DNA from: Flavobacteriaceae bacterium F08102
Lineage (GTDB): Bacteria; Bacteroidota; Bacteroidia; Flavobacteriales; Flavobacteriaceae
Assembly (NCBI GenBank): GCA_023015935.1
Contig: JALKAY010000008.1
Coordinates: 1 to 64,000, forward strand
Length of the DNA stretch: 64,000 nucleotides
Direction: 5' to 3'
A program made the position numbers and the translations under genes. Positions 1 through 62,834 of the stretch are shown here, in pieces. How positions within the stretch are numbered: position 1 is the stretch's first letter; the number at the start of each line of letters is the position of its first letter. The notes below the pieces were generated by a model. It was not told the origin of the DNA. It saw only the letters and a list, made by a program, of their open reading frames with translations, and made no database searches.

Positions 1-831
1 ACCATTACGGGGACCGCTGATTCTTCAGACAACTTAACCGTTGAAGTTGACGATGTGGTTTATACCGAAGGGGATGCTCATTTAGTAGATAACAAGGACA
101 ACACCTGGACTTTAACCATTCCTGAAGCCAATGCTTTAACGGATGGAATCTACGATGTAATCGCTACCGTTTCTGATGGCAATGGAAATACCGCTGTAGA
201 TGGAACAACGGACGAATTGACAATTGACACCACAACTAGCCCAATAGTGCTAACACAGCCTACGGTGAATGTATTAAATGCTAGTGACGCAACTCCGACC
301 CTTACAGGAACCGCTGATTCTTCAGATAACTTAACCGTTGAAGTTGACGATGTGGTTTATACCGAAGGAGATGGACATTTAGTTGATAATAATGACAACA
401 CCTGGACTTTAATCATTCCTGAGGCCAATGCTTTAATGGATGGAATCTACGATGTAATCGCTACCGTTTCTGATGGCAATGGAAATACCGCTGTAGATGG
501 AACAACGGACGAATTGACAATTGACACCACAACTAGCCCAATAGTGCTAACACAGCCTACAGTAAATGCATTGAATGCTAATGATGCGACTCCGACCATT
601 ACGGGGACCGCTGATTCTTCAGATAACTTAACCGTTGAAGTTGACGATGTGGTTTATACCGAAGGAGATGGACATTTAGTTGATAATAATGACAACACCT
701 GGACTTTAATCATTCCTGAAGCCAATGCTTTAACGGATGGAATCTACGATGTAATCGCTACCGTTTCTGATGGCAATGGAAATACAGCCAATGATGAAAC
801 ATTGAATGAAATAATCATTGAAACTATAAAA
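1..831 (+). repeat. 297-bp tandem repeats encoding Ig-like domains
   Basis: Units begin at bases 1, 298 and 595, exactly 297 bp (99 codons) apart. The third unit diverges after about base 784. Long blocks are identical at DNA level between units, including synonymous positions, while a few short stretches differ (for example ACGGGG against ACAGGA). The array continues upstream of the window. Confidence 0.93.
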
Positions 832-1473
832 TCAGATCTTACCATCCAAAAAACAGCAGATCAGGTAAATCCATTAGTTGGAGAAATACTCACTTTTACC
901 ATTACCGTACACAATACTGGAAACACGGTCTTTACTAGTGTAGAAGTTGAAGAAGAAATTCAAAATGGGTTTAGCTTTATAAGTGCCACAGCCTCACATG
1001 GAGAGTACAATGCAACGAGTGGAATATGGAAAATTGAAAGTTTAGGAGCGAATGAAACCGCTAGTTTAAAGGTCAAAGTGAAGGTGAATCCAGATGGAAT
1101 CCATCACAACACTGCATTAATTAGATCTTCAAATCCTATAGATAATGATGGTAATAATAATGCAGTAACTGTAGAGGTGAACTTAAGTTGCCTTACAGTA
1201 TACAATGAATTCACACCGAATAACGATGGCTCAAACGATACATTTAGAATAGAATGTATAGAAAATTATCCGTCGAGTAAATTACAGATTTTTAATCGGT
1301 ATGGTAATCTCGTATATGATGTTAAAGGTTATAAAAATGATTGGAATGGAGTTGCCAATGTACGTGGGGTAGTTGCCAAAGGAAAAACACTTCCAGAAGG
1401 AACCTACTTCTACTTACTCCGTATCGAAGAGCTAGGTAAAGTAATCAAAGGATGGATTTACATTGCCAAATAA
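1..1473 (+). CDS. C-terminal part of a giant secreted Ig-like repeat protein with T9SS type B sorting domain (5' end outside window)
   Basis: The reading frame is open from base 1, so this is the C-terminal 490 residues of a longer protein. It contains at least two and a half near-identical 99-residue bacterial Ig-like (Big) repeats, then a DUF11-type domain (roughly bases 835-1190, beginning SDLTIQKTADQVNP), then a gliding-motility-type C-terminal domain starting near LTVYNEFTPNNDG and ending KGWIYIAK. That last module is the type B signal that sends proteins through the type IX secretion system. The protein is therefore probably a surface adhesin or filament. The downstream PorP/SprF-like gene, 50 bp away, fits the usual pairing of such adhesins with a dedicated SprF-like partner. 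The GTG at base 55 is not a real start. Confidence 0.88.
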   Translation, partial: TITGTADSSDNLTVEVDDVVYTEGDAHLVDNKDNTWTLTIPEANALTDGIYDVIATVSDGNGNTAVDGTTDELTIDTTTSPIVLTQPTVNVLNASDATPTLTGTADSSDNLTVEVDDVVYTEGDGHLVDNNDNTWTLIIPEANALMDGIYDVIATVSDGNGNTAVDGTTDELTIDTTTSPIVLTQPTVNALNANDATPTITGTADSSDNLTVEVDDVVYTEGDGHLVDNNDNTWTLIIPEANALTDGIYDVIATVSDGNGNTANDETLNEIIIETIKSDLTIQKTADQVNPLVGEILTFTITVHNTGNTVFTSVEVEEEIQNGFSFISATASHGEYNATSGIWKIESLGANETASLKVKVKVNPDGIHHNTALIRSSNPIDNDGNNNAVTVEVNLSCLTVYNEFTPNNDGSNDTFRIECIENYPSSKLQIFNRYGNLVYDVKGYKNDWNGVANVRGVVAKGKTLPEGTYFYLLRIEELGKVIKGWIYIAK

Positions 1474-43630: not shown

Positions 43631-43684
43631 CTATATTCAAGTATTAATCAATAAAAATTTTTATTAACTAACACACGCAAATTT

Positions 43685-51028: not shown

Positions 51029-51616
51029 TTATTTCAAATTAATCTTGTAAAAAAAGAGTAAGATATTGAGTAATCTTTTATTCATTTTTTTTCTAAGTCT
51101 CGAAAAAGCTTTTGCAATTTGAGCCTCAACCGTTTTAACACTTAATTCAAGATATTCAGCAATTTCAATATTGGTTAGTCCCTCTTCTTTGCTCAACAAA
51201 AAGATACGTTTACATTTTTTTGGTAGTTTCTCAATTTCTTTTCTCATCACACCGATTAACCGTTCTGTAGATTCAGTATCAGTTTCATCAATAATTTCAT
51301 CTAAGGTTTCAACATATCGTTTTTCTAACGCCACTAAAGCTTTATTTTTCCGATACTGATTGATAAATTCGTTATAAATTGATTTGTATAAAAAATTCAA
51401 CAGCGATTTTGTAATTTTTAATTGTTTTCTTCGCTCAAACGTCTTCAAAAACACATTTTGAACTAAATCTTCTGCCATGGCTTTGTCATTAATTAAACTC
51501 ATAGCATAGGCAAACAATTTCTCGTTATATTCTCTTACCAAAAAGGTAAAAGCTTCTTCATCGCCATTTTTAATGGCCTTCAAAAAGGTAGGGTCATTTA
51601 CAGAATAGTCTTTCAT
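51029..51616 (-). CDS. ECF RNA polymerase sigma factor, locus 2
   Basis: A 195-residue ECF sigma factor closely related to that of locus 1. Region 2 is FAYAMSLINDKAMAEDLVQNVFLKTFERR, region 4 is LPKKCKRIFLLSKEEGLTNIEIAEYLELSVKTVEAQI. It points away from fecR, with 113 bp between starts. The shared promoter spacer with locus 1 suggests the two sigma factors could act on each other's promoter. Confidence 0.93.
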   Translation of the reverse strand: MKDYSVNDPTFLKAIKNGDEEAFTFLVREYNEKLFAYAMSLINDKAMAEDLVQNVFLKTFERRKQLKITKSLLNFLYKSIYNEFINQYRKNKALVALEKRYVETLDEIIDETDTESTERLIGVMRKEIEKLPKKCKRIFLLSKEEGLTNIEIAEYLELSVKTVEAQIAKAFSRLRKKMNKRLLNILLFFYKINLK

Positions 51617-51729: not shown

Positions 51730-52893
51730 ATGAATCAAAACATTGAACAATTAATCATAAAATTTCTCAATAAATCGGCCTCTGTTAGTGAATTAGACCT
51801 GTTAGAGAAATTACTGGAAGATAAAAATAACCAGGTTGTATTTAAAGAGCTGGTTCGTGTAAACCATTTATTAAATCGAACTGTATTTGATATTCAATCA
51901 GAAGATTTACTTCAAGTTTTACTAGAGAAATTAAGAAATGAAAAGAAGCAATCATTAAGAGTAAAACGAAATAAAAGGATTACTTATGTGGCAGCAGCGG
52001 TTCTCATTATGAGTCTTGGAATTGGATTGTTTATGCGTAAGTATACCACTTCAGATTCATTAAAACCGGTTATTATCAATAGTAATATCAATGTTGGAAC
52101 CAACAAGGCGGTATTAACATTAGAAGATGGCTCCAATATAACGCTAGAAAAAGGAAACCAATATAAGGCTGAAAATGTACAGAGTAACGGTGAGAAATTA
52201 GTTTATCACGAAGATAAAACTGCTATAAATGCTTTAGATGTTCGGTATAATACCTTAACCATCCCACGAGGTGCTCAATTCTATTTACAACTGCCAGACA
52301 GCACAAAAATTTGGCTTAATTCTGATAGTCAATTGCGGTATCCTACAACATTTCGTAAAGCAGAAACACGAAGTATTGAATTAGTTTATGGAGAAATTTA
52401 TTTAGAAGTCGCCCCAAGTAAGAAACATAATGGAATGCATTTCAAAGTGAGATCGAGAGACCAAGAAGTAGAGGTCCTGGGTACAGAATTTAATATAAAA
52501 GCTTATAAAGAAGAACAAAAAACCTATACCACTTTAGTCAATGGTTCAATATCACTTCATGTTGATGGAAATGTAAAACTATTACACCCTAACGAACAGG
52601 CTGTAGTAAGTTTAAATCAATCTATAAAAATTTCACCCATTGAGGTATACGATGAGATCTCTTGGAAAGATGGAGTTTTTAGCTTTAAAGGTAAAACGTT
52701 AGAAAAAATTATGACCGTATTATCAAGATGGTATGATATTGACTTCATCTTTGAGAACCCTTCCTTAAAAGGAATGAAATTCGTAGGTGTACTCGGGAAG
52801 AATCAAGAAATAACAGAAATATTAAAAACATTAAAAAACATAGGAACAATAACGAATTATCAAATTAATGATAAAACCGTAATCCTTAAGTAA
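51730..52893 (+). CDS. FecR family anti-sigma protein, locus 2
   Basis: A 387-residue membrane protein with the same layout as its locus 1 paralogue: anti-sigma part (NIEQLIIKFLNKSASVSEL), membrane helix (KRITYVAAAVLIMSLGIGLFM), FecR domain (GAQFYLQLPDSTKIWLNSDSQLRYPT, VYGEIYLEVAPS, EVLGTEFNIKAYKEE) and DUF4974 end (GKTLEKIMTVLSRWYDIDFIF). It starts 22 nt from the ECF-like promoter. A stem-loop follows 6 nt after its stop. Confidence 0.92.
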   Translation: MNQNIEQLIIKFLNKSASVSELDLLEKLLEDKNNQVVFKELVRVNHLLNRTVFDIQSEDLLQVLLEKLRNEKKQSLRVKRNKRITYVAAAVLIMSLGIGLFMRKYTTSDSLKPVIINSNINVGTNKAVLTLEDGSNITLEKGNQYKAENVQSNGEKLVYHEDKTAINALDVRYNTLTIPRGAQFYLQLPDSTKIWLNSDSQLRYPTTFRKAETRSIELVYGEIYLEVAPSKKHNGMHFKVRSRDQEVEVLGTEFNIKAYKEEQKTYTTLVNGSISLHVDGNVKLLHPNEQAVVSLNQSIKISPIEVYDEISWKDGVFSFKGKTLEKIMTVLSRWYDIDFIFENPSLKGMKFVGVLGKNQEITEILKTLKNIGTITNYQINDKTVILK

Positions 52894-52940: not shown

Positions 52941-52991
52941 ATTTACTCAATATTAATCAATAATAATAATTATTAACTAACGCACAAATTT

Positions 52992-55900
52992 ATGGAATTT
53001 AAATTAACTGAGAAGTTTTCCAATTTTCGGAAAAAAACGCTCCTTTTGCTTATGAAAACCTTCATTTTCTTGTTTTGCACTTCAATCTTCAGTTTCACTT
53101 CTGTAGATATATTCTCACAGAATGCAAAAATTACAATTGACCGAGATAAGGTAATTAGTGTTGATGAAGTTTTCGAAATTATTAAAGATCAAACTGATTA
53201 TCGTTTTATTTATCGAGAACATATGTTTGCCAATTACCCCAAAATACACCTTAAAAAGGGAAGTATCAAGGCCAACACGTTACTGAAACGAAGTCTAGCA
53301 TCAGGAAATTTTTATTTTGATGTTACTTCGAGTAAGACCATCATAATTAAAGAGAAAAATCCAAATCAACCTATACAATCTAGACTTCAGCAAGAATATA
53401 AAGGTACTGTAAAGGATGAGAACGGAATGCCTATTCCAGGTGTAACTATTCTAATTAAAGACACTAAAATTGGGACGTCAACTGATTTTGATGGCAAATT
53501 TTCAATTCAGGCCAAACAAGGGTCATTTCTCGTATTCTCCTCAATTGGTTATGTAACAAAAACCGTAGAACTCGGTACTAGCACCACCGTTAATTTAACG
53601 CTTGAAACCGACGTAACCACCTTAAATGAGGTAATATTAACAGGGTATAATACCATTATTGAGAAAAAAAATGCAGGTTCAATTACCAAAATAAAAACCA
53701 AAGACATTCCTGCTTGGAGTCCAAAGATTGACAATTTAGTTCAAGGTCAAATTCCAGGATTGGCCGTGACACAAAGTTCTGGAGAAGTTGGATCAGTACC
53801 TATCGTAAAAATCCGTGGGACCTCTACGTTAACAGGTAATACCTCTCCACTATGGGTCATTGATGGTGTGGTACTAGAAGACCCTGTTCCTTTAACACCT
53901 GCAGAATTAAATACGCCCGATTTAGTGAATAGAATTGGAAATTCCCTATCAGGGATCAATCCTCAAGATATTGAATCTATTACGGTCTTAAAAGACGCTT
54001 CAGCATCAGCAATATATGGGGTTAGAGCAGCTGGTGGTGTTATTGTTCTTACTACAAAACGAGGAGTAACTGGAAAACCAATCATTAACATCAATGTTGG
54101 CGCAACCGTTACCCAACGTCCACGTTATGATGATTTTAATTTAATGAATTCAAAAGAACGAATTGGCATTGAACAATATTATTATGATAGTGGCCTGCAA
54201 TATTACAATGCAGATGCGAATATACATTCAGTTGGTTTAGCTGGTGCGTATGCTAGGTATAAGAATCGTGATTTAGCTACCTGGGAAGCATATGAAAATG
54301 AAGTTCGAAAAGCCCAAACCTATAATACCGATTGGTTTAAGGAATTATTTAGAGATGCCATAGGGACCAATACAAATTTCAACATTTCAGGTGGAAGTGA
54401 AAATATTAATTATTATGCCTCTTTATCATATTTAGATCAGGAAGGAACAGATATTTTAACTAAAAACAAACGTTATAATGGTTCTATAAAATTAAATGCC
54501 CAATTAAACGATAAATTTGATTTAGAATTATATTTATCGACCTTTGTTACACAACGTTCTTCCTACCCTTATAGTTATGTCCCTTCAGGAATTTCTAATT
54601 TCACAAGAGCGACCCCTACTCCCTTTAATTATGCTATTAACACAAGTAGAACATTTCCTTTGTATACAGAAGACGGAAGTCCATACATGTACAGAGGGCA
54701 CAGTGACTTCTATTTGTTTAATATCATGAATGAATACAATAACTCCAATCAAGAAACTAATACAAACAGTCAAAGTTCAAGACTGTCCTTAAATTATGAT
54801 ATTCTTGATAATTTAAAATTATTCGGTGTATTTAACTACACAAAAAGTAGTCAATTAAATGAAACTTATTATAAAGAGAATACGAATCAAGTTGCTGGTA
54901 TAAGACGCTCAAATTATGGTGAACCAGCTCCCGAAGATAGTAATTTACCCAGTGGAGGTGTCATTTTCTCAAACACTAATTTTCAGAATTATTATATGAC
55001 GCGAGTTGCCTTGGAATATATGCCCTTAGATACAGAAGAACAGTATTTGAAGTTCTATGGAGGTGGTGAATATCGAGTAAATAGTTATCGAGGAGATAAT
55101 ACGATTGGTTGGGGCTATTTACACGATCGAGGACGTGTGGTAGCAACAAGTGAAAATATAGGTGAGGAATTAGCTGGAGCACCTTACTTAACGATAAGGG
55201 ATTACACCACTAAATCGGCCTCATACTTCGGAGTACTTACTTATTCCTTATTTAACAAGTACGTAATAAATGGAAACATACGTTATGATGGCTCTAATCT
55301 TTTTGGATCTAGTCCAAAATATCGTTGGGAACCAGCATGGTCAGTTTCTGGACGGTGGAATTTAATGGAAGAAGACTTCTTAAAAGATGGTATATTTAAT
55401 AATTTAGCCATACGCGCCTCTTATGGATTACAAGGCTCTACAAATTCGCAAAACACACCACAAATTGTGGCATCGTTTCTAAATCCAGCGTATTGGTCAA
55501 ATTTGAATTTACTTACCATTTCTTCACCAGCAAATCCCGATTTAAGATGGGAAAAAACGTACAGTACGAATTTCGGATTAGATTTTGCAATTTTTAATAG
55601 TCGAATTCAAGGAGCTATTGACGTTTACAGTCGTTTAAGTAAAGACTTAATAACAAATACGAGAATATCTGAAGTAAACGGTTTTTCAACACTTCCTATT
55701 AATTTTGCCGATGTATCAAATAATGGGGTTGAATTTGGATTGACCACGCGAAATATCCGTGCAAGTAAACCAAATTTCAATTGGAGTACTACAATTAATT
55801 TTGCGTACAATAAAAATGAAGTTAAAAAGGTAAATGTAGATCCTGTGGTAGCGCGAATGTTATCTCCATTTCCTTACAAACCCGATGCTGCCGTAGTAGG

Positions 55901-56543
55901 TAAACCTTTAAATTCATTGTATTCCGTTGATTACAGTCATTTAGATGATAACGGGGTTGCACATTTTAACCTAGCGAATGGAGATGTAACAACTTCGTCA
56001 AGAAATTTAGAATTTGGGATTGAAGACCTTGTCTACAATGGTCCAATTGAAGCTCCATACCAAGGTGGATTTACGAATCTTTTTGAATATAAAAACTTTA
56101 AATTATCCGGTTTATTTACTTATGGTTTTGGAAATTATTTTAGAAAAGATGAAATTCTCGCTTCATGGATGTATTCACCGGATCAAAATTTAAGCAAAGA
56201 ACTCCTAAACGCATGGAAGGAACCTGGGGATGAAAACTTCACAAACATTCCTCATATTCAGAATGAAACCGGCGCAAACAATCACAAATACTTTTGGAAT
56301 AAAAGTGATATTAGAGTGATTAAAGGAGATTATTTACGGTTGAGCAATGTTACGCTTCAGTACAATCTTCCTGAAAACTTTTTAAAGAAGTTAAACTTCT
56401 CACGTGCCTTTATTCAATTAGAAGGAAACAACTTATTGTTGTTTGCAAATGATGGTTTAGATGGCTATGATCCTGAAACATTCCCTTACAGATCGCTCCC
56501 TATTCCAACGTCTTTTATGTTGAGCTTTAATGTTACCTTTTAA
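52992..56543 (+). CDS. SusC/RagA family TonB-linked outer-membrane transporter with STN domain, locus 2
   Basis: A 1183-residue transporter with leader segment LLMKTFIFLFCTSIFSF, STN domain at about 48-115 (ITIDRDKVISVDEVFEIIKDQTDYR), a carboxypeptidase-like domain near 134-215 (YKGTVKDENGMPIPGVTILIKD), plug (IDNLVQGQIPGLAVTQSSGE ... KDASASAIYGVRAAGGVIVLTTKRG) and a barrel ending FMLSFNVTF. The mature N-terminus is similar to locus 1, while the barrel differs strongly, so the substrates probably differ. It begins 51 nt after the stem-loop. Confidence 0.94.
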   Translation: MEFKLTEKFSNFRKKTLLLLMKTFIFLFCTSIFSFTSVDIFSQNAKITIDRDKVISVDEVFEIIKDQTDYRFIYREHMFANYPKIHLKKGSIKANTLLKRSLASGNFYFDVTSSKTIIIKEKNPNQPIQSRLQQEYKGTVKDENGMPIPGVTILIKDTKIGTSTDFDGKFSIQAKQGSFLVFSSIGYVTKTVELGTSTTVNLTLETDVTTLNEVILTGYNTIIEKKNAGSITKIKTKDIPAWSPKIDNLVQGQIPGLAVTQSSGEVGSVPIVKIRGTSTLTGNTSPLWVIDGVVLEDPVPLTPAELNTPDLVNRIGNSLSGINPQDIESITVLKDASASAIYGVRAAGGVIVLTTKRGVTGKPIININVGATVTQRPRYDDFNLMNSKERIGIEQYYYDSGLQYYNADANIHSVGLAGAYARYKNRDLATWEAYENEVRKAQTYNTDWFKELFRDAIGTNTNFNISGGSENINYYASLSYLDQEGTDILTKNKRYNGSIKLNAQLNDKFDLELYLSTFVTQRSSYPYSYVPSGISNFTRATPTPFNYAINTSRTFPLYTEDGSPYMYRGHSDFYLFNIMNEYNNSNQETNTNSQSSRLSLNYDILDNLKLFGVFNYTKSSQLNETYYKENTNQVAGIRRSNYGEPAPEDSNLPSGGVIFSNTNFQNYYMTRVALEYMPLDTEEQYLKFYGGGEYRVNSYRGDNTIGWGYLHDRGRVVATSENIGEELAGAPYLTIRDYTTKSASYFGVLTYSLFNKYVINGNIRYDGSNLFGSSPKYRWEPAWSVSGRWNLMEEDFLKDGIFNNLAIRASYGLQGSTNSQNTPQIVASFLNPAYWSNLNLLTISSPANPDLRWEKTYSTNFGLDFAIFNSRIQGAIDVYSRLSKDLITNTRISEVNGFSTLPINFADVSNNGVEFGLTTRNIRASKPNFNWSTTINFAYNKNEVKKVNVDPVVARMLSPFPYKPDAAVVGKPLNSLYSVDYSHLDDNGVAHFNLANGDVTTSSRNLEFGIEDLVYNGPIEAPYQGGFTNLFEYKNFKLSGLFTYGFGNYFRKDEILASWMYSPDQNLSKELLNAWKEPGDENFTNIPHIQNETGANNHKYFWNKSDIRVIKGDYLRLSNVTLQYNLPENFLKKLNFSRAFIQLEGNNLLLFANDGLDGYDPETFPYRSLPIPTSFMLSFNVTF

Positions 56544-56558
56544 TTTAAAATTAAAAAA

Positions 56559-58001
56559 ATGAAATCTATATATATAAAATTATTGCTTTTAATAAGCCTT
56601 CTTTTTACTTTTTCTTGCGACAAAGCCTTAGAAGAAGAACCGCAGAACAAATTAAAACCACAAACCATTAGTGATTATGATGAACTATTAAATTATGGGT
56701 ATCCAACCACCAAAGATTATGGGACTGTAGTTCCTTTGGATTACTATGTAGAAATGATGACAGACGATCAAGACATTCGTTATTTGAATGTTGATCGCGG
56801 TGAATATCCTATGCATCCTTTCACTTTTGAAAGCACACATGAACATGGTTCTATGCTTAATGGATATGACCAATCTTGGAAGAATTTTTATAAAAGCATC
56901 TATTACGCAAATGTAGTTGTTGAAAATGTGGATGGGGCTGATGGAGATCCTTCTGCTATTGCTTATACAAAAGGAGAAGCGATGGTGCTGAGAGCCTTTG
57001 CCTATTTCAAGCTAATTAATCTTTATGCAGCACCTTACGATCCTGCTACTGCCAGCACAGACTTAGGCGTTCCGTTAAAACTAGATCCTACGGTTCAAGC
57101 CGAATCTTACACCCGTAATACAGTTCAAGAAGTGTATGATCAAATTAATTTGGATTTAGAAACTGGAATTAAATTGATGGAAGATAATGATCAGCGAATT
57201 ACTTCTAAATTTAAATTAACACCTATTTCCGCTAATTTATTAGCTTCAAGGGTATATTTATATCAAAAAGATTACGAAAACACTATTCATTACGCGAGCC
57301 GTACAATTGAGCTTAATAATCAATTGTTTGACTTGTCTCATAACACTATTGCCTTTGCCCAAACAGGTTGGGGATACGGACAAGGAACGCATTATTTAGA
57401 TCCAGAAAATGAGAATGTTTTATTCGTTTATGGATCCAATGAAATGTATTATTACGTTTACTATCCAGGTGCCTTAGCTATCTCAGATGATTTCATTGAT
57501 ATTTTTGAACCAGGTGATTTGCGCTTTTATTACTTTACATATGTCAAAGGTGCATTAGGAAGAAGTTATTTTAAATTTAGACCATTTCCTAATCGAACAG
57601 GACAACCGATAAGAGGTTTTCGTGTAGAGGAAGCCTATTTAAATAGAGCAGAAGCCTATGCTATGACTTCAAATCCTGAGAATGCCTTAGCAGATATCAA
57701 CACCATTAGAAAAACTAAATTTGATGCTTCTTTTGACGTTAACAGCGATTATTATAAGTATACCACAGCCGAATACAACACAGATCAAAAGGTCATTGAC
57801 GCTGTCCGTGAAGAGCGAAGACGTGAATTATTTGGGGAATTCCATCGATGGTATGATTTAAGACGATATGGAATGCCTGAAATTACCCATTATTACGATA
57901 ATGAAACCTATACCTTGCCAGCTAATGATCCACGGTATATTCTTCAGATTCCTCAAATTGAGTTAGACTACAATCCATTAATGCAAAAAAATCCACGATA
58001 A
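56559..58001 (+). CDS. SusD/RagB family outer-membrane lipoprotein, locus 2
   Basis: A 480-residue lipoprotein (lipobox LLFTFSCDKAL) with SusD core (AMVLRAFAYFKLINLYAAPYDP, LKLDPTVQAESYTRNTVQEVYDQI, DAVREERRRELFGEFHRWYDLRRYG). The end is NPLMQKNPR, normal for the family. It is the lid of the SusC 15 bp upstream. The sequence is much different from the locus 1 SusD, consistent with a different ligand. Confidence 0.93.
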   Translation: MKSIYIKLLLLISLLFTFSCDKALEEEPQNKLKPQTISDYDELLNYGYPTTKDYGTVVPLDYYVEMMTDDQDIRYLNVDRGEYPMHPFTFESTHEHGSMLNGYDQSWKNFYKSIYYANVVVENVDGADGDPSAIAYTKGEAMVLRAFAYFKLINLYAAPYDPATASTDLGVPLKLDPTVQAESYTRNTVQEVYDQINLDLETGIKLMEDNDQRITSKFKLTPISANLLASRVYLYQKDYENTIHYASRTIELNNQLFDLSHNTIAFAQTGWGYGQGTHYLDPENENVLFVYGSNEMYYYVYYPGALAISDDFIDIFEPGDLRFYYFTYVKGALGRSYFKFRPFPNRTGQPIRGFRVEEAYLNRAEAYAMTSNPENALADINTIRKTKFDASFDVNSDYYKYTTAEYNTDQKVIDAVREERRRELFGEFHRWYDLRRYGMPEITHYYDNETYTLPANDPRYILQIPQIELDYNPLMQKNPR

Positions 58002-58014
58002 AGGCAACTATATT

Positions 58015-58899
58015 ATGAAAAAAATTATAAATACTTTCAAATACGCTATACTTACTTTATTGGTGAGTTTGGCAGCTTGCAGCAACGAAACTATATTACA
58101 AGCAGATTACGAAGCACCAAATGAGTTACCATTAAATTTGGTTCCTGGAAGCCCCTTAAATGATCGAATCTTAGAGTTATATGATAATTTTGGTATCGTC
58201 GTTTATACGGATGTTAACAATCCAAGAATGTATAAGGACTTAGTGTCTGAAGAAGGCCTTATAATAGGCGATAGAATGGCAGCAGATACAGCTGCTGCCT
58301 TAGTGTACATCGATATGATTGAAAAAGAATTTGTAAATACACTTCCCGAATCAATGGAGGACTTAATCCCCAGAAACTTTTACCTATTTAAAAATGAATT
58401 AATTACAGGTACAAGTGCTTATAATAAGTATGAATATCTCTCAAAGTTGTGGTATAACAGTAATGGAGATTTAACTGTTGGTGGTTTAAATAACGCTTCA
58501 TTGGATAGCGTAAAACTTAAACAAACCTTCTATTATGGTTTGTCAAACATATTGAGAAACGATCCGATTAATATGAGTGCTTATTATCAACCCTTTGTCG
58601 ACCTTAAAACAGATGCAGGAGTATATTATTGGCAAGTATATACTCTTGAAGGTGCGTATGAACGTGGATATTTAAGCGACAATCAAAATTTGATTAAATC
58701 ACACCAACAGGACTTCGATTTATTTGCTGCCTGGGCAGCGACTACGCCTTCAGATATCAGAGAAGATTTATTAAGTCAATATCCACTGATGCGACAAAAG
58801 TACAACTTAGTAACGGCCATGTTCAGACAAGCTGGCATCAATTTAGAAACGGTTAGTGAGCAGTGGGCAGAAAGTGATTTTAATCCAATCAATAATTAG
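58015..58899 (+). CDS. SusCD-associated lipoprotein of the zinc metallohydrolase (HExxH) family, active site lost
   Basis: A 294-residue lipoprotein (lipobox LAAC, Cys22). Length, order and neighbours match the substrate-import-associated zinc metallohydrolase lipoproteins that sit beside SusC/SusD. At the helix where the family has HExxH, this protein has Tyr-Gly-Leu-Ser-Asn (residues 174-178 in TFYYGLSNILRN). The later acidic ligand region (HQQDFDLF, near 230-237) also lacks the expected Glu. It should not bind zinc in the usual way; it may bind a peptide or assist the transporter. It starts 13 bp after susD. Confidence 0.72.
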   Translation: MKKIINTFKYAILTLLVSLAACSNETILQADYEAPNELPLNLVPGSPLNDRILELYDNFGIVVYTDVNNPRMYKDLVSEEGLIIGDRMAADTAAALVYIDMIEKEFVNTLPESMEDLIPRNFYLFKNELITGTSAYNKYEYLSKLWYNSNGDLTVGGLNNASLDSVKLKQTFYYGLSNILRNDPINMSAYYQPFVDLKTDAGVYYWQVYTLEGAYERGYLSDNQNLIKSHQQDFDLFAAWAATTPSDIREDLLSQYPLMRQKYNLVTAMFRQAGINLETVSEQWAESDFNPINN

Positions 58900-58907
58900 G
58901 GAAAAAT

Positions 58908-60398
58908 ATGAAGAAATTAGGCGCGAAAATAACTCATATATTCATGGTTTTTATACCAGTGATTAGTGTCGGTTGTGCCAATCTTAAAATTGATGAACCC
59001 ACAAAAATTATTGTTTCAGGACATGTAGCGAATATTCTTGATACCACTGTGAATTTCTCTTATTACAAATATGACTTATTAGAAAATTTAGCAACGCAAC
59101 CTGTTAATTTTGATGATAACGGTAATTTTAAAATGCAAATTGATTCTAAAAAACCATTAAAAGGATGGTTTTCATTTGGAAAAGAGCCTGTGACAAGAAA
59201 ATTCACATTCACGACCAATCAAGGAAAAGATTCAACGATGACACAAGGAACTTTTGATTTTAAAATGCTTTACCTTTATTTAAAACCTGGTGACAGTGTC
59301 CATATCATAACCGATGCAAATGACCTTAATTCGAAAACTGAATTTCATGGTAATATAAATGATGATATTGCTTTTACCATTGAGGAAGAAAAACGATTTA
59401 ATGATTATAAACATAAATTTCTTCGAAATTGGTATGATGTCAGTCAACGAAAACCTAAGGATTTTATCAAATCTGTTGAAAATTTGTATAACGAAAAAAT
59501 GGCATTCTTAAAGGAATTTCAAAAATCAAACTCACTGAGTGAGGAGTTGATTAATTTTTATAAGGCTAATGCTTTTTCTAGTTTAATTAGTTCTAAAATA
59601 AATTATCCGAAAACGTATGCTACTTATAATGAGGGATCCACGTTAATTTTACCCGATGATTATTTTGATTTTTTAGAATCCGTTCGTTTACAAGAGGATA
59701 TTCCTCAAAATGGCATAGGTTATTTTTACAATCTAAAATCGTATCTCACTAAAAAGTATGAAATTTATCAAAATATTTCATCTGAACCCGTTGATTTTTA
59801 TGATTGGATTTCTACCGAACTTCCTGAAAAAATCAGGTATCAATATATGGCATATTCTCTAGCAGGAGACTTCTCGAAACGCTTATACGAGGCCTTCAAC
59901 GAAAATTGTCCATATCCAGAAATGGCAAAAGTAGTCCGGGAAAAATATCAACACCTCGAAGGAATGCTTGAAGGAAGTGAAGCGCCCAACGTGACTTTTG
60001 AAACCATTGATGGAACAAAGGTTATGTTGAATGAATTAAGGGGAAAATACACTTATATCGATTTATGGGCAACTTGGTGTGGACCTTGTATTAAAGAAAT
60101 TCCTAGTTTGCAAAAAGTTGAAAAGCTATATCACGGAAAGAATATTCAATTTGTGAGCGTTTCTTTTGATAGTGAAAAAGATCATGACAAATGGGTTCAT
60201 TATGTGAAGAATAATGGGTTAACAGGTCTTCAATTTATTGCCTCAAAAGAGACTCATACGATTTTGTCAAAGCAATATAACATTAAAACGATTCCGCGAT
60301 TTATATTGTTAGATCCTGACGGTAAAATAATAGACGCTACGGCGCCATTTCCTTCTGATCCTGCCCTGATAAAACTTTTTGAAAAACACCATATATAA
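58908..60398 (+). CDS. TlpA-like thioredoxin-fold lipoprotein, locus 2
   Basis: A 496-residue lipoprotein (lipobox SVGC, ISVGCANLKI). Residues about 30-150 form a beta-rich domain of the kind that begins many Bacteroidota TlpA proteins (VSGHVANILDTTVNFSYY), the middle is helical, and residues about 360-496 are a TlpA thioredoxin domain with Cys391-Gly-Pro-Cys394 (IDLWATWCGPCIKEIPSL) and IKTIPRFILLD. It is likely a periplasm-facing disulfide reductase. It starts 8 bp after the metallohydrolase-like gene, so here it is clearly in the operon. A terminator follows at once. Confidence 0.9.
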   Translation: MKKLGAKITHIFMVFIPVISVGCANLKIDEPTKIIVSGHVANILDTTVNFSYYKYDLLENLATQPVNFDDNGNFKMQIDSKKPLKGWFSFGKEPVTRKFTFTTNQGKDSTMTQGTFDFKMLYLYLKPGDSVHIITDANDLNSKTEFHGNINDDIAFTIEEEKRFNDYKHKFLRNWYDVSQRKPKDFIKSVENLYNEKMAFLKEFQKSNSLSEELINFYKANAFSSLISSKINYPKTYATYNEGSTLILPDDYFDFLESVRLQEDIPQNGIGYFYNLKSYLTKKYEIYQNISSEPVDFYDWISTELPEKIRYQYMAYSLAGDFSKRLYEAFNENCPYPEMAKVVREKYQHLEGMLEGSEAPNVTFETIDGTKVMLNELRGKYTYIDLWATWCGPCIKEIPSLQKVEKLYHGKNIQFVSVSFDSEKDHDKWVHYVKNNGLTGLQFIASKETHTILSKQYNIKTIPRFILLDPDGKIIDATAPFPSDPALIKLFEKHHI

Positions 60399-62792: not shown

Positions 62793-62834
62793 AAGTTATA
62801 TTAATTAAATCAAGTTTAACTAACATTCAAATTT

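Follow-up and report, generated by a model that had tools for sequence, protein, structure and literature searches.

A probable non-catalytic relative of the M93 zinc peptidases encoded between SusD and a TlpA-type lipoprotein

Directly after its SusC and SusD genes, the locus studied here encodes a lipoprotein, X, which its sequence, its modelled fold and its gene position make very probably kin to the M93 peptidases (TIGR04549; PF15890 Peptidase_Mx1; MEROPS M93, BACCAC_01431; PDB 4l7a, 9urd), the reference family for X. In X, conserved, non-ligating residues take the place of the two histidines and catalytic glutamate of HExxH and of the glutamates of EDxxE. The conversion of a peptidase into a non-catalytic subunit is well supported, and ligand binding, by analogy, is the likeliest role. 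On balance we favour X as a non-catalytic M93 descendant serving as a SusCD subunit, whose former cleft would bind or position a substrate for hand-over.

Results

Organisation of the locus

The SusC/SusD context given to X in the preliminary description was borne out by the order of the open reading frames (ORFs) and by matches to TIGR04056, PF14322 and PF07980. In the window, that is, the whole stretch of 64,000 nucleotides that was analysed, the locus comprises:

51029..51616, minus strand: ECF-type sigma factor, divergent gene heading the locus (ORF; assigned by eye)
51730..52893, plus strand: FecR-type anti-sigma factor (PF16344, 9.7e-19; PF04773, 3.9e-17)
52992..56543, plus strand: SusC/RagA-type TonB-linked outer-membrane transporter (TIGR04056, 656.7 bits, cut-off 368.25)
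56559..58001, plus strand: SusD/RagB-type lipoprotein lid (PF14322, 5.1e-25; PF07980, 2.5e-18)
58015..58899, plus strand: X, putative M93-like lipoprotein without zinc site (ORF, alignment, hhalign, fold search)
58078..58080, plus strand: codon of the X lipobox Cys22, its sole cysteine
58534..58548, plus strand: YGLSN of X (174-178), aligned with HExxH, within predicted helix 165-181 (model, MAFFT, hhalign)
58708..58722, plus strand: QDFDL of X (232-236), at the EDxxE position, in predicted helix 230-243 (model, MAFFT)
58908..60398, plus strand: TlpA/AhpC-type thioredoxin lipoprotein with WCGPC (PF00578, 1.6e-17)

The X frame is intact, with an ATG start 13 bases 3′ of the SusD stop, a length of 294 amino acids and a lipobox leading up to Cys22. 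It sits between the SusD gene and the TlpA-type gene, and a TlpA-type gene occupies the matching position at L002/L069, L004, L005 and L006/L070. The model of the TlpA partner (pLDDT 51) shows, besides the thioredoxin end, a beta domain and a helical region. The lipoprotein export signal of Bacteroidota lies in the residues that follow the lipid-bearing cysteine. These are acidic in X and SusD (CSNET, CDKALEEE) and lysine-rich or neutral in the TlpA proteins; by this rule, the cell surface is the probable location of X and SusD, and the periplasm perhaps that of the TlpA-type lipoprotein.

Positions 41421-64000 of the window hold three consecutive sigma-FecR-SusC loci (partly assigned by eye), the first two also with SusD and a thioredoxin-type protein, the third running past the window end; X is present only in the middle one. 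A leader, TAACTAAC...CAAATTT, lies just 5′ of the SusC start in all three (43650-43684, 52955-52991 and 62800-62834), as well as in L004 (TAACTAAC) and L005, and is absent from L070. We considered Fur regulation of the X locus on the basis of a Fur-like site with four mismatches before SusC, and rejected it because the site falls in this leader, common to the window's other SusC genes and to L004 and L005; upstream of the X locus there is no Fur-box match beyond this leader motif. At the other end of the window (1-1473), a frame open at the left edge encodes, as judged by eye, near-identical tandem Ig-like repeats and a C-terminal gliding-type sorting end.

The zinc site is missing

We aligned X, its three orthologues and one paralogue with 27 M93-family proteins (32 in all, MAFFT). 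HExxH is present in its columns in 23 of the 27 members, and YGLSN of X aligns with it; hhalign gives the same register, with SNIL of X under SHIL of M93, so that both methods confirm the placement made in the preliminary description. Its suspicion that the third ligand was missing also proved right. In the EDxxE columns, where 26 of 27 members carry the motif (L067 has DDFAE), Q232 of X stands under the first glutamate, which from the Glu-zincin pattern would be the third zinc ligand, and L236 under the last. An alternative HxxxH elsewhere in X, named beforehand as grounds for giving up the claim, was looked for and does not exist, H230 being the only histidine and Cys22 the only cysteine. 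Indeed, each of the four orthologous proteins has a single histidine (H230, H232 in the same column, H118 and H256), at sites that are mostly unshared, and none has a cysteine near a possible metal site. With one histidine per protein, a histidine-based zinc site is not possible.

YGLS and Q232 are kept in all four proteins (X, L004, L005, L006), QDFDL is invariant among them, and N178 is found in three, L006 having a glycine. As YGLS and Q232 are common to the relatives, a sequencing error is excluded. Close homologues retaining HExxH had been expected to inform the case, and the search for them ended with L004, L005 and L006, which lack the motif as well. The paralogue, P0002, is also without HExxH, and two alignments disagree by three columns over which of its residues stand at this position (SGYFQ versus TYFSG).

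Kinship with M93

X is recognised by none of the Pfam and NCBIfam models, and a PDB sequence search returned nothing credible; it has no match to TIGR04549 at E ≤ 10 and none to PF15890 at E ≤ 1. The bridge to the family is P0002, encoded in the same genome within a locus of the same SusC-SusD-X-TlpA order and 24% identical to X over residues 8-285 (E 7e-10). P0002 weakly matches TIGR04549 (E 0.0029) and PF15890 (E 0.05), in both cases below the family cut-offs (16.9 bits, cut-off 75; 13.4 bits, cut-off 25.6). A profile of the four orthologues and P0002, trimmed of signal peptides, matched all M93 rows in hhalign with a probability of 93.5% (p 2e-7) and the HExxH rows alone with 60.6%, versus 0.1-0.3% for the control families TlpA, DUF4302, DUF4856 and SusD. 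When P0002 was left out the match was lost (5.0 and 1.5%, with controls up to 1.1%). A full-length comparison had given 97%, which we downgraded since it included signal peptides and HExxH-less rows.

The five-row AlphaFold2 model of X is mostly helical (mean pLDDT 56, pTM 0.57). Foldseek placed both chains of 4l7a first (E 4.5e-4 and 8.1e-4), the next row having E 2.1. In VIA-align, 4l7a gave Z 13.7 over 210 residues at 4.2 Å, the next row having Z 8.0, a score to be read knowing that the helical model is of low confidence, that chance alone can give a helical model a Z near 14 without kinship and that AlphaFold2 may have learned 4l7a. The rows after 4l7a are other zincins, the catalytic part of anthrax lethal factor and PPEP-1. 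The M93 profile itself has two credible PDB matches, 4l7a (4.5e-66) and 9urd (3.3e-70); a third, at E 0.16, was judged not credible.

We accept the kinship as very probable because of the wide gap to the next structural row and because of the gene position, and the relation to the zinc lipoprotein family claimed in the preliminary description thus finds support in the bridging paralogue and in the superposition, which gave no ground for abandoning the zincin fold. The fold and the descent of X are supported, albeit indirectly, by sequence and model. The features that define TIGR04549 place X outside that family, as a derived relative that is not catalytic.

Two further observations concern related loci. 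In the paralogous locus (own genome, C11), the TlpA gene that follows P0002 is split in two separate frames (L069:4668-5297 and L069:5664-6041) and therefore probably broken; an intact 462-residue TlpA homologue comes next, at L069:3189-4577. At L041:2956-4065 and L042:2930-4087, 370-residue lipoproteins with no library match and no HExxH directly follow SusD. They were considered as a second bridge to M93 and dropped, as hhalign aligned only their signal-peptide end.

Orthologues and selection

Orthologues 67, 65 and 63% identical to X occur in Winogradskyella marina (L004), Gelidibacter salicanalis (L005) and genome G094 (L006), in loci with the same SusC-SusD-X-TlpA order, and the frame is open in 4/4. 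Between X and these three, pS is 0.74, 0.78 and 0.96 and pN 0.21, 0.22 and 0.28; dN/dS is finite for one pair only (0.08), the TlpA neighbour giving 0.16 and 0.10. As synonymous sites are saturated while pN stays at 0.21-0.28, X is under purifying selection and is not decaying. The preliminary description spoke of a destroyed motif: the loss stands, but the decay that the word implies does not, as the replacement is conserved under purifying selection.

Among the mature positions, 131 of 272 are invariant in the four orthologues. The 21-residue segment round residue 232 is 81% invariant (rank 2 of 252 segments), the best, at 233, reaches 86%, and the one at 176 has 52% (rank 77/252). From these ranks, the conserved core is the third-ligand helix and not the HExxH helix.

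X is rare, being found in 2/397 genomes of the bacterial family both by sequence and by the five-row profile, and in neither of two genomes of the same genus; in the species-level collection it has two named relatives. The profile also matched 4/395 phylum genomes, and three of these matches, short and partial (E 0.002-0.005), were excluded from the relatives of X. G094 carries both an X-type locus (L070) and a locus with HExxH (HEYCH, L074).

In 3/3 related loci, the gene after TlpA encodes a protein of 357-360 residues with a GENH stretch (L004:8303-9418, L005:8402-9484, L070:10253-11326). The sole library match, that of the L070 protein to the Tiki/ChaN family, is weak (E 0.08), and at E 0.01, in a search without positive control, the protein was not found in the window's genome.

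A parallel HExxH-less group

The stronger point lies outside the window: loss of HExxH also marks operons of the iron capture system (ICS) type. TIGR04549 occurs in 22/296 genomes of the order (17 above cut-off) and 12/247 of the phylum. HExxH is missing in 4 of the 27 M93 proteins, namely L022 and L023, near-copies of each other (HHFAK), L032 (NNTAK) and L067 (HQFAK). The catalytic glutamate and the second histidine are gone in all four; EDFAE is kept in three, with DDFAE in L067, and all four score above the TIGR04549 cut-off. Three entries were left out of the count, a fragment (L031) and parts of L030 and L066 (L033 and L068), and L024-L028, weak matches that are other zincins, fell below the alignment cut.

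We examined the neighbourhoods of the four HExxH-less proteins (L071, L072, L073, L082) and, among the 23 HExxH proteins, those of 10. SusC, SusD and DUF4302 adjoin the M93 gene in 14/14, SusC being in two pieces at L078 and L083. All four HExxH-less loci continue with a 200-residue protein and DUF4856, which at E 1e-5 is the case in none of the ten others, and the association of HExxH-less M93 proteins with ICS-type operons is one that holds among these loci. The layout SusC-SusD-M93-DUF4302-200 aa-DUF4856 is the icsC-icsH order.

In a tree built without the motif columns (and without the partial L021), the five rows related to the window protein and the four ICS-type rows form separate, well-supported groups, so that the absence of HExxH needs two changes. 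We read this absence as loss, because related zincins have the motif. A single origin of the nine HExxH-less proteins is disfavoured by the tree but not rejected by the AU test (p-AU 0.238); given this and the long branches present, two separate losses are only the likelier history.

Discussion

Proposed role of X

In the mechanism that we favour, X would carry its lipid on Cys22, would probably reach the cell surface along with SusD, and would probably stand beside SusC/SusD as an extra subunit, by analogy with the utilisomes. It is predicted to retain a zincin-like fold of two subdomains, whose former cleft most likely holds a substrate, perhaps a peptide or a peptide-bearing ligand, for SusCD; once import is complete, a periplasmic TlpA-type thioredoxin would act, on disulfides for example. 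That X lies on the surface, docks on SusCD and binds a ligand is what we infer here, as is the nature of that ligand; a peptide, heme or a metal carrier are all possible, with no Fur site speaking for iron. The HExxH-less lineage that occurs in parallel in ICS-type operons lends weight to the receptor reading.

X could instead be purely a scaffold that steadies the SusC-SusD lid, controls its opening or brings in another lipoprotein, with a cleft that binds nothing. We regard this as rather unlikely. The average conservation of the former HExxH segment agrees with it, and conserved stretches elsewhere, such as residues 120-160, could be contact surfaces. However, few parts of X are as conserved as the third-ligand stretch, which is on the cleft side.

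It is improbable that X is still an enzyme, with a cleft rebuilt for other chemistry at another site or with another metal. The conserved polar residues Y174, S177, Q231, Q232, D233 and D235 would be material for such a site, but the single, mostly unshared histidine and the absence of any cysteine except the lipid anchor speak against it, as does the fact that Pfam and NCBIfam recognise no known catalytic motif. Nor do we give much credence to the view that X is no zincin at all, but an unrelated SusCD-linked lipoprotein whose likeness to M93 stops at its length, its position and a poor model. The silence of the M93-family models on X, the failure of the orthologues alone to match M93 and the low confidence of the model would all fit. 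Against this view stand the link from X through P0002 to TIGR04549 and PF15890, the contrast between the trimmed profile and the four control families, and the zincins in the top structural rows. Finally, a functionless remnant of a decaying enzyme, to which the patchy distribution might point, can practically be discounted in view of four open frames, saturated synonymous change at low pN and conserved replacement residues.

The non-catalytic, substrate-binding reading of X has a wider bearing. The third or fourth lipoprotein of SusCD importers varies, and what it does is often guessed from the name of an enzyme; automated annotation also gives labels like 'substrate import-associated zinc metallohydrolase' to proteins unable to hold zinc. 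The absence of the motif in loci of ICS layout, and again in a thioredoxin-linked locus, suggests that such subunits can bind and not cut, and one scaffold with and without its zinc site can be compared directly in comparable operons. We would go further only tentatively, in a conjecture we hold with somewhat less than even confidence: SusCD importers might repeatedly convert the M93 peptidase into a substrate receptor, once in the ICS-type lineage, with EDFAE/DDFAE kept, and once in the window lineage, with both motifs lost and DUF4302 exchanged for a thioredoxin lipoprotein. The name 'zinc metallohydrolase' would then mislabel an entire functional class, and the ICS would grip transferrin by means of a pseudopeptidase. 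In the open-licence literature (subscription papers being mostly outside it), we found nothing joining SusC/SusD with a pseudoenzyme and nothing on 9URD.

Comparison with known systems

Like X, the M93 proteins are lipoproteins of about 290 residues encoded directly after SusC and SusD, with a GF(I/L)(T/S) and a DF stretch near the third-ligand helix, and X shares their predicted fold, its low-confidence model matching 4l7a (Z 13.7). Unlike them, X has neither HExxH nor EDxxE, escapes the family models and is followed by TlpA instead of DUF4302. Indeed, DUF4302 is absent from the window's own genome (0/1), in a search whose positive control matched in Bacteroides ihuae.

The ICS of Capnocytophaga canimorsus and its Riemerella counterpart share with the X locus the order SusC, SusD, M93-type lipoprotein, and the ICS-type loci examined also share an M93 protein without HExxH (4/4). 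They differ in that the X locus has no DUF4302, no 200-residue protein and no DUF4856, TlpA standing in their place, and in that the ICS-type M93 proteins retain ED/DDFAE. According to PMC5429918, Riemerella B739_0103 to B739_0098 are homologues of C. canimorsus icsC to icsH, are raised under iron limitation (table values of 3.06-3.81, which we take as log2) and include the icsE homologue B739_0101, annotated 'substrate import-associated zinc metallohydrolase'; every ICS polypeptide, IcsE included, is reported there as necessary for iron uptake from serotransferrin. From the shared gene layout, IcsE would itself be without HExxH. Transcription of B739_0103 is up in a fur mutant, as reported in PMC7976709. 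PMC10434189 lists negative fold changes for Bacteroides thetaiotaomicron BT3958-59 and BT3961 (DUF4302), which may speak against a simple iron story.

A further parallel is offered by the levan and dextran utilisomes of Bacteroides. PMC7618045 describes SusC as a platform for further lipoproteins, with surface lipoproteins sitting on the SusC lip, one of them non-catalytic (SGBP). These are glycan systems, whose binding proteins are apparently not zincin-like. By gene order, the X locus resembles them in having a SusCD pair with additional lipoproteins, probably surface-exposed in the case of X, of which one would bind and not cut.
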